DNA of 64,000 nt from Rhodanobacter sp. C01 (GTDB lineage: Bacteria > Pseudomonadota > Gammaproteobacteria > Xanthomonadales > Rhodanobacteraceae). The notes beneath the pieces are model-generated. The model searched no databases. It worked only from the letters and a program-made list of their open reading frames with translations, and had not been told where the DNA came from. The stretch is taken from the NCBI RefSeq assembly GCF_002001045.1, contig NZ_MUNR01000007.1, positions 1 to 64,000 of the forward strand, read 5' to 3'. This document shows positions 43,354 to 49,504 of the stretch, piece by piece. The translations under genes were made by a program, and so were the position numbers. The stretch's first letter is position 1; each line of letters starts with the position of its first letter.

Positions 43354-44370
43354 TCAGCGATCCAGCGGACTCAACACACCGTGGCCACCACGATTGAGTA
43401 CATGCGTGTAGATCTGGGTGGTGGCGACGTCCTTGTGGCCGAGCAGTTCCTGGATGGTGCGGATGTCCTGCCCGGCCTCCAGCAAGTGGGTGGCAAAGGA
43501 ATGTCGCAAGGTGTGGCAGGTAGCCGGCTTCACGATGCCGGCGCGGCGGCACGCTGCCTTGATCGCGCGCTGCAGCGACGACTCATCCAGATGATGGCGA
43601 CGCTCGATGCCGCTGTGCGGGTCGCAACTGCGAACGGACGCGGGAAACACGTACTGCCAGCCCCAGTCGCCGGCGGCACCAGGAAACTTGCGCGCCAACG
43701 CGTCAGGCATCCAGACCCGCCCGAAACCGGCGGCCACGTCGCGCTGGTGAATTCTTGCCGCCTCGGCCAACTGGGCCTGCAACGGCTCGACCAGCCGGCG
43801 CGGAAGCATCGTGCGGCGATCCTTCGCTCCCTTGCCTTGGCGCACCAATATCTCGCCGCGGGCAAAATCCACATCCTTTACCCGCAGCCTCACGCACTCC
43901 ATCAGGCGCATGCCGGTGCCGTACAACAAACTGCCCATCAACCAGTGCACACCCACCAGCTCATCCAGCAATGCCCTCGTTTCGACAGGCGTCAATACCA
44001 CCGGCAAACGCTGTGGCCTTTTCGCCCGCTCAACGCCATCGAGCCAGGGCAGCTCCACTTCCAGCACCTGTCGATACAGAAACAACAATGCCGACAGGGC
44101 CTGATTCTGGGTCGATGCCGAGACCTTCCCGTGCACGGCCAACGAGGTCAGGAACGCCTCGATCTCCGGCGCACCCATCTCCGACGGATGCCGTTTGTCA
44201 TTACCGAGAATGAACCGGCGTATCCATCCCACATAGGCTTCTTCGCTGCGCCTGGCCATGCCGAGCCTGCGCATCCTCTCCCGCACGCGATCCAGCAACT
44301 TCGGCGAACCCGACCCCGTTTCGCTTGCTCCATGCTCCGCCCCATGAAAGGATGACACCGGCATCTCCAC
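43354..44370 (-). CDS. intI: Integron integrase (tyrosine recombinase)
   Basis: A 338-residue tyrosine recombinase with an intact catalytic set: Arg in GTGMRLMECVRL, Lys in GKGAKDR, HTLRHSFATHLLE (HxxR), LGHKD and the nucleophilic Tyr in TTQIYTHV. The insertion between the Lys and the HxxR motif reads KFPGAAGDWGWQYVFPA followed by a basic HH segment. This is the alpha-I2 patch unique to integron integrases and separates it from phage or XerC/D enzymes. It is transcribed away from the cassettes, the usual orientation. GTG 44370 has AAGG 4 bases upstream; ATG 44364 is also possible. It appears fully functional. Confidence 0.95.
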   Translation of the reverse strand: MEMPVSSFHGAEHGASETGSGSPKLLDRVRERMRRLGMARRSEEAYVGWIRRFILGNDKRHPSEMGAPEIEAFLTSLAVHGKVSASTQNQALSALLFLYRQVLEVELPWLDGVERAKRPQRLPVVLTPVETRALLDELVGVHWLMGSLLYGTGMRLMECVRLRVKDVDFARGEILVRQGKGAKDRRTMLPRRLVEPLQAQLAEAARIHQRDVAAGFGRVWMPDALARKFPGAAGDWGWQYVFPASVRSCDPHSGIERRHHLDESSLQRAIKAACRRAGIVKPATCHTLRHSFATHLLEAGQDIRTIQELLGHKDVATTQIYTHVLNRGGHGVLSPLDR

Positions 44371-44459
44371 TCGCCTTCGGAAAGTTGAGATTAGGCTGCA
44401 GGATTAGGCCGCACCAAGCAGAGCAAGCCATTGATTCATGTAGGCCGTAACGCAACGAA

Positions 44460-44525
44460 AGCATCGACTGCACGGGGATAGGTCGCAGGATTACACTGCA
44501 TTTTGAAATCTACTAAGCGTTAGCT
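44460..44525 (+). other. attI: attI-like recombination site
   Basis: The first cassette boundary is the core GTTAGCT at 44519-44525, 149 bases upstream of the intI start codon. This is fixed because the first cassette's own attC begins AGCTAAC, the exact complement of that core, as a circularised cassette requires. The left limit of attI is a guess from the usual size of about 65 bases. The region 44371-44518 contains no gene. Confidence 0.7.
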
Positions 44526-44529
44526 GCTT

Positions 44530-45069
44530 ATGAACCTACCCTCGATACCAACAGACAATCTCTACAAATTTTGCGCGGTGTCAGGCGTAGTATTGCTGCT
44601 GTTTGGCGCGACGTTTCCAGTTCAAAAGCTCTTCGATACTCAAAATAATTTGGATCAAGTCAGAACCGAAGAACAAATTCTGTCGTTACAAATTGCTGAC
44701 CTTCAGGAGGACTTTCACCGCGTCAACTCCGATCTCGAGACTTTACAAAAGGACACCACTGCAGCGGAGGCGAACCCTCGTGCAGCAGATTTACCATCGT
44801 TGCGAGCTAGAAGTACTACAGCAGGTACCACTATCAACGCAGTTAAAAAGCAGAGCCGTCAGCTTGCGCTTATCAACGTAAGGCAACAGGGAAATTTCGA
44901 ACACCTTAAACATCTTATTCAACGCTTGTGGCTCTACGTCGCTGCAGCGGCTATCTTCATGCTGGGTGGGTTGCAGCTCGCTTTTTTCGGGTTCAGGTGT
45001 TGGTACTATCGTGTGCAGAAGCCTGCAGACGACCTTCTACAGCGCCAAATCCGCGAGAGCAGCAGCTAA
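44530..45069 (+). CDS. Integron cassette 1: two-membrane-span coiled-coil protein
   Basis: A 179-residue protein of unknown family. A first membrane segment (about residues 13-32) is followed by a charged helical stretch with heptad character (about 36-85), a Ser/Thr-rich loop and a second membrane segment (about 132-155). The hairpin-with-long-coil layout resembles spacer or sensor membrane proteins, but no specific match is known to me. Its start lies 4 bases after the attI core, and its stop codon is within the attC. It is adjacent to intI and is thus the most recently captured and probably best expressed cassette. Confidence 0.75.
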   Translation: MNLPSIPTDNLYKFCAVSGVVLLLFGATFPVQKLFDTQNNLDQVRTEEQILSLQIADLQEDFHRVNSDLETLQKDTTAAEANPRAADLPSLRARSTTAGTTINAVKKQSRQLALINVRQQGNFEHLKHLIQRLWLYVAAAAIFMLGGLQLAFFGFRCWYYRVQKPADDLLQRQIRESSS

Positions 45070-45126
45070 CAAGTCGTCCAAGCGGACGCGCGAAAAGCCG
45101 CGCGCCGCTTAACTCCAGCGTTAGCC
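45064..45126 (+). repeat. attC1
   Basis: It runs from the inverse core AGCTAAC (45064-45070) to the core GTTAGCC (45120-45126), with a longer central stem (GCGCGCGAAAAGCCGCGCGC type) than the other sites. The inverse core complements the first cassette's own boundary. Confidence 0.88.
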
Positions 45127-45137
45127 CTTGGAAGAAG

Positions 45138-48187: not shown

Positions 48188-48592
48188 ATGACCGACACGA
48201 CCTCGCTATCGGAGTACCTCGTCATCTCCCGCGGGCAGTGGGACAAAGACAGATCGCCCAAGGAAATACAGGCGGCGATTGACGACTTCTACATCTGGCA
48301 CGATCGACTCGTCAGCGAAGGGACGATGAAAGCGGGACAGCGGCTCGCGCGCGAGGTGAAAATCGTAACAAGACACGGCGTGGTTGATGGCCCCTTTGCC
48401 GAAGCCAAGGAGGTCGTGGGCGGCTACTGGTTCTTCCTGGCTGGCAGCCTGGCCGAAGCCGCGGCACTTGCTGCGCAGAATCCTTGTCTGGCCTGCGGTT
48501 TGACGTGCGAGGTTCGACCCATTGAAGGGGAACGCGCCAGCGCGTTCAAGTTGAGCAATGAAACGCCCGAGAATTTCGGCGATGGGGAATGA
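48188..48592 (+). CDS. Integron cassette 9: YCII-related (DGPF) domain protein
   Basis: A 134-residue soluble protein with the family signature VVDGPFAEAKEVVGGYWFF. YCII-related proteins form ferredoxin-like barrels, and some act as small dehalogenases or accompany sigma factors; function here is unknown. The ATG at 48188 has GGGAG 6 bases upstream; a GTG at 48167 is also in frame. The ORF is GC-richer than cassettes 1-8. Confidence 0.82.
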   Translation: MTDTTSLSEYLVISRGQWDKDRSPKEIQAAIDDFYIWHDRLVSEGTMKAGQRLAREVKIVTRHGVVDGPFAEAKEVVGGYWFFLAGSLAEAAALAAQNPCLACGLTCEVRPIEGERASAFKLSNETPENFGDGE

Positions 48593-48626
48593 TTCGCAGC
48601 GGAAGTCATTGCGTGCGGCTGCGGAG

Positions 48627-48682
48627 GCCTACCCTTCCCTCAAGGCGGCCGCCTTCGGCGCCGCTTAATTCCAGCGTTAGGC
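48627..48682 (+). repeat. attC9
   Basis: Inverse core GCCTACC (48627-48633, one mismatch) and intact core GTTAGGC (48676-48682), 56 bases, with the stem GGCGGCCGCCTTCGGCGCCGC. Confidence 0.8.
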
Positions 48683-48697
48683 CCTTGGGAGATAGCC

Positions 48698-49126
48698 ATG
48701 AGCCGATTGATGCGATTTCCAAGTGCGGTCAAACGCGACCCAGCGGTCGATGCCTGGATGCATGAACACCGGGGACCACTTGGCACCATTGCGCAGCAAT
48801 GGTTTGGCGTGATGCGCAACTGCGGTGACGATGTCCAGGAACTGTTGCACGATGGACATCCAACCGCGTGCATCGGTGATGTGGCGTTCGGCTACGTGAA
48901 CGCATTTACCAACCACGTCAATGTCGGCTTCTTCCTTGGTCCCGAAATGGAAGATCCACAGTGCTTGCTAGAAGGCACTGGCAAGTTCATGTGTCACGTG
49001 AAGCTCAAGCCGGGCAATGAGATTGACTCAACGGCACTCAAGATGCTGGTGGTGACCGCATACACTGGTATTCGACGTCGCCTGGAGCCGGGCCCCGACA
49101 ATCAGCCGCTTCGCGACTCGGCTTGA
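48698..49126 (+). CDS. Integron cassette 10: DUF1801 domain protein
   Basis: A 142-residue soluble protein with the DUF1801 (YdhG/YdeI-like) pattern: AFGYVNAFTNHVNVGFFLG, LLEGTGKFMCHVKL. DUF1801 is a small fold of unknown biochemical role. GGGAGATAGCC precedes the ATG. It shares the interval between attC9 and attC10 with a 5'-truncated VOC gene. Confidence 0.82.
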   Translation: MSRLMRFPSAVKRDPAVDAWMHEHRGPLGTIAQQWFGVMRNCGDDVQELLHDGHPTACIGDVAFGYVNAFTNHVNVGFFLGPEMEDPQCLLEGTGKFMCHVKLKPGNEIDSTALKMLVVTAYTGIRRRLEPGPDNQPLRDSA

Positions 49127-49453
49127 CTCAGACATCAGGCGTTGCACGAACTGAAAGGCTTCGAGATTCTTTATCGGGACGATGAGCTGGCAGTGGTGGC
49201 GCGCGATGGCACGAAGGCCTACCTTGTCCAGAGCCCGGAATTTGCGGCCAAGGATCGCCCGGAGCTTGCGATCGAAACCGACCATATCGACGAGATTTTT
49301 CGGGACATCTCGACGCGGGTTCCCCATCTGCTTCATCCCAATGCGCGGACCGTCTCCCTGAAACCATGGGGAGCAAGGGAATTTGCAGTACTGGATGAAA
49401 CGAGCGTGTGCGTGGTTTTCCGGCAATGGCCCGGCCATGAGCAAGATGGGTGA
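49127..49453 (+). pseudogene. 5'-truncated VOC/glyoxalase-like gene
   Basis: The frame reads KGFEILYRDDELAVVARDG...TDHIDEIFRDI...KPWGAREFAVLDETSVCVVF, typical of a vicinal-oxygen-chelate (glyoxalase/bleomycin-resistance-like) protein. It begins in the middle of the first beta-alpha unit. About 20-25 N-terminal residues including the usual start and first strand are missing, and there is no ATG. The only possible start is TTG 49142 without a ribosome-binding site. It follows directly, in the same frame, on the DUF1801 stop codon. A deletion that fused two cassettes explains it best. Confidence 0.65.
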
Positions 49454-49504
49454 CTATTCGTTCAAGGCGAACGACTGCGTCGCCACCTGGATCCAGCATT
49501 TGAC
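49448..49504 (+). repeat. attC10, degenerate
   Basis: It aligns over its full 57 bases to the intact sites (TATTCGTTCAAGGCGAACG ... CCAGCATTTGACC). Both cores have decayed: the inverse core is GGGTGAC and the core is ATTTGAC. This is the last recognisable attC of the array. Confidence 0.7.

Follow-up and report, generated by a model that had tools for sequence, protein, structure and literature searches.

Probable integrase exchange among chromosomal integrons of Rhodanobacter

The window examined here, a stretch of 64,000 nucleotides from Rhodanobacter sp. C01 (contig NZ_MUNR01000007.1, positions 1 to 64,000), carries a chromosomal integron flanked by an ndvB-like gene and zwf. Such integrons are generally described as ancient, tied to one locus and co-evolved with their hosts. 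Our comparison of related genomes suggests instead that integrase types have been swapped among a few chromosomal docks that share one cassette pool, a pattern that would misfit a fixed, inherited chromosomal integron. We consider it probable that units made up of the integrase gene intI and its attI site are replaced at these docks by recombination, and that a single pool of attC sites and cassettes is common to them.

Integrase lineages, docks and host species

Forty Rhodanobacter genomes, a sample of a larger group, were compared; G000 is the genome of the window and the other G numbers are the compared genomes. A careful intI tree of 31 rows (29 Rhodanobacter-like, one from Frateuria and one from a Lysobacteraceae bin) contains three lineages: alpha with 7 rows (support 100/99), beta with 8 (100/99) and gamma with 16 (99/98). 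The dock tests left out the remaining Rhodanobacter integrases at other or unplaced sites, which are second copies in G009, G012, G016, G017, G024 and G034 and the intI genes of G006 and G008 on short contigs. The integrase of the window is alpha. This lineage is found at ndvB and at mfd, and both beta and gamma are found at ndvB, at mfd and at a third dock, which adjoins a proline-rich gene that matches no family. Dock labels change on the tree 7 times for ndvB, 8 times for mfd and 3 times for the third dock, and approximately unbiased (AU) tests, which covered the ndvB and mfd docks, reject the ndvB integrases as one clade (p = 1.0e-7) and likewise the mfd integrases (p = 1.6e-53). The same discordance between lineage and dock is seen in a quick tree of 124 intI rows. 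Very divergent extra integron integrases, 48-52% identical to that of the window, were also seen in G016 (C14:435915 and C19:481463) and G028 (C6 and C4).

The integrases do not follow the host species either. Species relationships were read from an rpoB tree of 30 of the 33 genomes with an rpoB match, and on this tree the lineage state of the ndvB dock, scored in 13 genomes, changes at least 5 times. The window's genome belongs to a clade of nine species (98/97) in which the ndvB dock holds alpha in G000 and beta in G007, is empty in G004 and G026 and has no intI in G016, G018 and G063, the state of G014 and G015 not being scored. At mfd, members of this clade carry gamma (G000, G007, G016, G026), beta (G018) or alpha (G015). 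G007 and G018 are sister species (rpoB 96%) and differ at mfd, with gamma in the former and beta in the latter; the ndvB intI of G007 is beta and shares 89% nucleotide identity with the mfd copy of G018. An alpha attI without intI remains at the ndvB dock of G016, G018 and G035, and alpha was therefore probably present at that dock at an earlier time.

The sequence-only reading had called the integron resident (sedentary). The features of that type are present, as it is chromosomal, is flanked by ndvB and zwf and has homogeneous attC sites, six of them nearly identical. What stands of the label is the stable locus; the intI-attI unit does not follow the host lineage, and three cassettes are letter-identical with those of an integron of another lineage in G000, which qualifies it further. 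Inheritance of the integrase with its host at one locus was not found, and a partial vertical signal stays.

Cassettes shared between integrons

A profile search of G000 gave exactly two integrases above the cut-off. The second integron adjoins mfd (TIGR00580) on contig C6, its intI convergent with mfd, and has 13 attC sites on the stretches searched (12 on L111 and one on L177); its integrase and the window IntI share 66% protein identity. Cassettes 3, 4 and 5 of the window (525, 403 and 413 nt) have copies with zero differences in this mfd array. The copies end exactly at the crossover bases, their neighbours on both sides differ between the arrays, and their order is 3-4-5 in the window and 5-3, two others, then 4 at mfd, so these cassettes most likely moved singly.

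Related cassettes were also found in other genomes and beside other integrase lineages. Cassette 3 is letter-identical (525/525 nt) to the first cassette of the G018 mfd integron, which has a beta-type integrase and attI, and copies of cassette 4 with 95-97% identity are found at ndvB in G007 (beta), at the third dock in G021 (gamma) and on C12 of G018. Cassette 1 has a match in G018, another species, with 100% identity across 571 of its 601 nt. Among the matches listed from 45 genomes, cassettes 2, 6, 7 and 8 gave only attC-sized matches; for cassettes 9 and 10 this set contains relatives with 65-93% identity. One attC family lies behind all lineages, with 276 matches at E 0.01 over 33 stretches, and attC sites of the window type were found in 38 of the 40 genomes at E 1e-5.

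The G018 copy of cassette 1 (L214, 4984-5554) is preceded by a CACTACTGAAGCG|TTAGC junction. The attC of this copy is cut short, and by eye the sequence after it resembles an insertion sequence; it is possible that this copy was integrated at a genomic site other than attI. G000 also has two attC clusters without a nearby integrase above the cut-off, L215 (C6, 326-338 kb) and L220 (C10, ~296 kb), with 17 and 3 sites, respectively, at E <=0.01.

The proposed exchange unit and its putative 3′ breakpoint

Since the alpha attI is found with the alpha intI at both the ndvB and the mfd dock, intI and attI travel together in this lineage. Stratified tests of lineage and dock along intI used 29 of the 31 rows, with G012 and G024 dropped as their aligned sequence ends at residue 328. 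Lineage has a strong effect up to residue 298 (p < 0.001), which becomes weak at residues 299-318 (p = 0.004) and disappears at 319-338. The dock effect is highest in the 6 nt past the last shared intI codon (p = 0.0003) and persists out to roughly 40 nt (p = 0.013-0.017). An initial scan of the labels over intI with all 31 rows gave no consistent dock signal, the lowest p being 0.006 at residues 248-267. Four of the five third-dock intI genes (beta G014; gamma G035, G032 and G021) have an extra glycine codon before the TGA, and four of the ten mfd intI genes (one alpha, one beta, two gamma) run into a common TGAGGCTC.

Identity between the window and G007 intI is 0.84-0.96 from residue 273 as opposed to 0.49-0.84 upstream, as a crossover there would produce, but this part is generally similar in alpha and beta and we do not rely on it. 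A mosaic intI in G060, with a beta N-terminal and an alpha C-terminal part, was suggested by 97% amino acid identity at the C-terminus and rejected; its C-terminal DNA does not favour alpha over beta rows, being about as similar to either, and a beta intI that has undergone a deletion is the better description. The 35-residue intI remnant beside ndvB in G031 could not be assigned to a lineage by DNA comparison.

Integron integrases insert circular cassettes at attI and remove or reorder them through paired, folded bottom-strand attC sites, and the window IntI should act in the same way. Under the explanation we favour, intI-attI units would replace each other at fixed docks by homologous recombination, with one crossover in the conserved last ~40 codons of intI and the other in attI or in the shared attC/cassette array. 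The integrases of all three lineages would recognise one attC family and cassettes would travel singly between platforms. Single-strand attC recombination leaves the donor copy behind after replication, and the cassettes may have been copied by this route. We are evenly divided over the fuller picture of a modular system, in which a few fixed docks, at least three rotating intI-attI units that cross over at the 3′ end of intI and a genus-wide cassette pool usable by every unit are combined, such that the dock including the intI stop codon is inherited and the integrase is exchangeable.

Alternative explanations

Several points weigh against exchange at the docks. The beta and gamma attI sites are alike, with those of the gamma mfd integrons of G000 and G007 called beta at 4 and 3 mismatches, and because of this resemblance only the alpha attI is a clean marker. 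A dock effect is also present inside intI, at residues 239-258 (p = 0.014) and 259-278 (p = 0.0003), and is not explained by a single breakpoint at the 3′ end. The last 40 intI codons are highly conserved (78-89% identity), so the fading lineage signal there may partly be a matter of low power. The dock groups were named after the quick tree was seen, which lessens the weight of the AU p values; the species phylogeny was built from rpoB alone and has several weak forks, and some of the compared genomes are metagenome bins or draft assemblies. Finally, the ndvB labels are clustered on the IntI tree, with 7 changes compared to a shuffled mean of 10.6 and 14 of 500 shuffles as low, and since they are non-random the dock history would seem to be vertical in part.

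This clustering would suit an ordinary sedentary integron, in which alpha was acquired once at ndvB and inherited and the discordance stems from ancestral paralogous platforms and their losses. The attI remnants described above make alpha old at ndvB among the window's relatives, and G031 has, in addition to its intI remnant beside ndvB, a beta intI ~23 kb further. We nevertheless find such a history decidedly unlikely, as a spread of alpha over two docks and of beta and gamma over three would call for an ancestor with about eight platforms followed by many losses, and neither the AU results nor the differing mfd integrases of the sister species agree with it. The dock signal past the intI stop would also arise if whole platforms had repeatedly and independently inserted at the same base, in a transposon-like or site-specific manner. 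By eye, homology between docks stops at the end of intI in each lineage, and the labelled docks have a convergent host gene that is usually near, both of which favour precise insertion. At the three empty sites, inspection by eye, without a systematic search, showed neither terminal repeats nor a target-site duplication, and the extra glycine codon common to beta and gamma genes at the third dock is most simply left from a resident intI; we therefore regard repeated insertion as rather unlikely. Misassembly of repeats could also be thought to have produced the second integron and the identical cassettes, given repetitive attC arrays and draft or binned assemblies for several genomes. An assembly or binning artefact of this kind seems very improbable to us, as the two G000 integrons are on different contigs, each adjoining a core gene, the genome is 100% complete with 0.34% contamination, and on neither side do the shared cassettes have the same neighbours in the two arrays. 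In G025, G027 and G031 (one contig each) intI also lies between ndvB and zwf, truncated in G025 and G031.

The ndvB-zwf dock

The left neighbour of the integron is an ndvB-like cyclic beta-glucan synthase gene (34433-43315, + strand; 2960 aa) with Pfam matches to the GH94 supersandwich and catalytic domains and to glycoamylase; its protein had no NCBIfam match at E 1e-5. The right neighbour is zwf (50157-51569, + strand; TIGR00871, 472 bits, cut-off 401). The C-terminal part of ndvB was found in 38 of the 40 genomes, with 79-89% identity in the 37 other than the window's, and a zwf orthologue (>=59% identity) in 39. Both genes are on one contig and one strand, less than 40 kb apart, in 20 genomes, where their spacing is 0.2 kb to 35 kb. 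They share a contig in G028 at a distance of 61 kb and on opposite strands, are on different contigs in 16 genomes, and one of them was not found in three. A whole intI lies between them in 7 of the 20 genomes (G000, G001, G003, G009, G022, G027 and G029) and a partial or broken one in four (G025, G031, G033 and G060). No intI was found between the two genes in the other nine, of which G004, G026 and G030 have empty sites with a gap of ~0.2 kb.

The sequence-only reading had placed the integron next to ndvB and away from ilvD, the site of the Xanthomonas integron, and our results agree; an intI adjoining ilvD (<=250 bp) was found at loci L038, L043, L046 and L053, and that of the window adjoins ndvB instead. 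Of its two proposals, a different insertion locus or a rearranged one, only the former holds. Because the ndvB-zwf pair occurs on one contig in 20 of 40 genomes, both with an integron in between and without one, the interval is, on this comparative evidence, a recurrent integron dock in Rhodanobacter and not a rearranged Xanthomonas ilvD integron.

Two forms of zwf were observed in Rhodanobacter, one with 77-100% identity to the window's gene in 29 of the 40 genomes and one with 59-62% in ten, which suggests that zwf was replaced in part of the genus; in G011, zwf was not found except for a 39% paralogue. The ndvB-zwf gaps of G016, G018, G035 and G063 (L123, L124, L136 and L138) contain related stretches with 84-92% identity, holding an ORF (open reading frame) of ~109 aa and a GNAT-like ORF, and those of G016 and G018 also have TetR- and MFS-like ORFs, all named by eye. 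The window has no match to these four gap stretches.

The integron of the window

The analysis confirmed, from its sequence features, that the window holds a complete chromosomal integron in the interval separating the ndvB-like gene from zwf. The alpha-lineage intI (43354-44370, - strand) is convergent with ndvB across a 38 bp gap. Its product scores 476 bits in a profile search against TIGR02249 (cut-off 265), and the XerC and XerD models give it 142 and 141 bits against cut-offs of 335 and 330. In a structure-sequence search the top match of known structure is chain 2a3v, 'IntI4' (E 8e-98), which aligns over the full length; it is not closely related to the window IntI and supports the family assignment only. 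This alignment continues through residues 200-255, which we take to be the stretch with the integron-specific I2 region, and the XerA alignment skips them. The catalytic residues are presumably R155, a lysine in 179-185, H286, R289, H312 and Y321. The protein is outside the NF011946 equivalog of class 1-type integrons (360 bits, cut-off 435). The start codon is uncertain, the TIGR02249 match starting at residue 25. The profile and structure matches bear out the earlier description of a complete integron integrase, and in trees the protein falls among integron integrases and not with phage or XerC/D recombinases, the placement that would have spoken against it.

The interval upstream of intI (44371-44519) comprises the promoter side of the gene and the alpha-type attI, the latter recognised by its sequence and by a motif that accompanies alpha intI at ndvB and mfd. 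The putative crossover, as read directly from the sequence, is in GCG|TTAGC after G44519, 149 bp from intI, in keeping with the attI junction noted before. Decamers resembling ATTAGGCTGC occur at 44390-44399, 44403-44412, 44478-44487 and 44490-44499. They form two pairs, separated by ~85 bp, in the stretch from intI to the alpha attI, and similar pairs are visible beside other alpha integrases; they may be operators or sites bound by the integrase.

Ten attC sites, seven canonical and three decayed, extend from 45063 to 49507. Nine were found by a repeat search, and the tenth, attC1, is a longer variant (45063-45129). A covariance model scores the ten sites at 52-88 bits and the next best place in the window at 11.6 bits; the model was built from the same ten sites, which match by construction, and the evidence is the score gap. 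A core pattern taken from the sites (<=3 mismatches) has 8 matches, all within the array, with a chance expectation of 0. The ten sites of the sequence-only reading were thus recovered and the covariance model separates them sharply, though with the circularity just given. Its description of the sites as nearly identical applies to attC2-7; attC1 is canonical but longer, attC8 and attC10 have lost the R' core GTT (ATT), and R'' of attC9 has decayed to CCTACCC. Since these cores are broken, the distal cassettes 8-10 are probably frozen. Bottom-strand folding energies of the seven canonical sites are -11 to -18 kcal/mol, compared to shuffle means of -7 to -9 kcal/mol, and the top strand is roughly as stable as the bottom strand. 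Rfam gave no match in the window at gathering score and Tandem Repeats Finder no repeats over 42-51 kb.

All cassette genes are on the + strand in the ORF list, as had been noted. Cassette 1 (44520-45120) has a coiled-coil-like ORF (44530-45069) without family assignment, followed by attC1. Cassette 2 (45121-45545; ORF 45138-45500, attC2 45494-45554), cassette 5 (46474-46886; ORF 46486-46812, attC5 46835-46895) and cassette 7 (47273-47719; ORF 47293-47646, attC7 47668-47728) likewise have no family assignment, nor do the small, hydrophobic ORF of cassette 6 (46887-47272; ORF 46941-47171, attC6 47221-47281) and the hydrophobic ORF of cassette 8 (47720-48136; ORF 47729-48091, attC8 48085-48145). 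Cassette 3 (45546-46070; ORF 45555-46025, attC3 46019-46079) is YcxB-like, slightly below the Pfam cut-off, and cassette 4 (46071-46473; ORF 46080-46409, attC4 46422-46482) has a zinc-ribbon-like end, also below it. Cassette 9 (48137-48676; ORF 48167-48592, attC9 48625-48685) encodes a YCII domain (PF03795). Cassette 10 (48677-49498; attC10 49447-49507) has two ORFs, 48698-49126 (DUF1801) and 49142-49453, the second remotely bleomycin-binding-like and far below the cut-off. After the last attC is a + strand ORF of the glyoxalase superfamily (49525-49914; PF00903) without its own attC, and the right edge of the element could extend to its end at ~49914. PADLOC, run on 10 of the 12 ORFs of the cassette region, found no defence system, with one marginal match (E 0.0086).

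Comparison with known integron systems

If integrases are indeed exchanged in this manner, the rate of platform replacement becomes measurable in Rhodanobacter, and it becomes testable whether different integrase lineages act on shared substrates in vivo and how the pools of cassettes stay common. G000, with its two integrons, is a ready test bed.

The Xanthomonas ilvD integron has an ancestral dock with intI beside a core gene and frequent intI loss, and in X. arboricola intI was replaced by a distant one at the same locus (ilvD 97.1% and intI 68.2% alike) (PMC12444791). Rhodanobacter is similar in its dock beside a core gene, intI loss and intI replacement, but differs in having at least 3 docks, three lineages and mixed pairing of dock and lineage, in the position of the window's dock at ndvB-zwf and not ilvD, and in the two integrons with identical cassettes in one genome. 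In the Vibrio superintegron the integrase signal mimics that of the species (PMC11551772). Both it and the window integron are chromosomal and have cassettes mostly of no known function, but the Rhodanobacter integrase signal does not follow the species and the array of the window is short, with 10 sites. Shewanella has several integrase types per strain and limited correlation between integrase and flanks, for which the authors point to mobile elements (PMC9229058). Several integrase types per genus and genome and lateral transfer are common to both genera, whereas the flanks in Rhodanobacter are fixed docks reused by different lineages. A survey of intI genes described genomes with multiple intI, numerous pseudogenes of intI and a lack of congruence between intI trees and those of the organisms (PMC2426708); its accessible parts do not tie this incongruence to shared docks, as the Rhodanobacter case does. 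In the open-licence literature, covered as listings and parts of papers, we found no description of an ndvB-zwf dock or of several docks with rotating lineages. Each component is of a known type, and the new element is the pattern of exchange.

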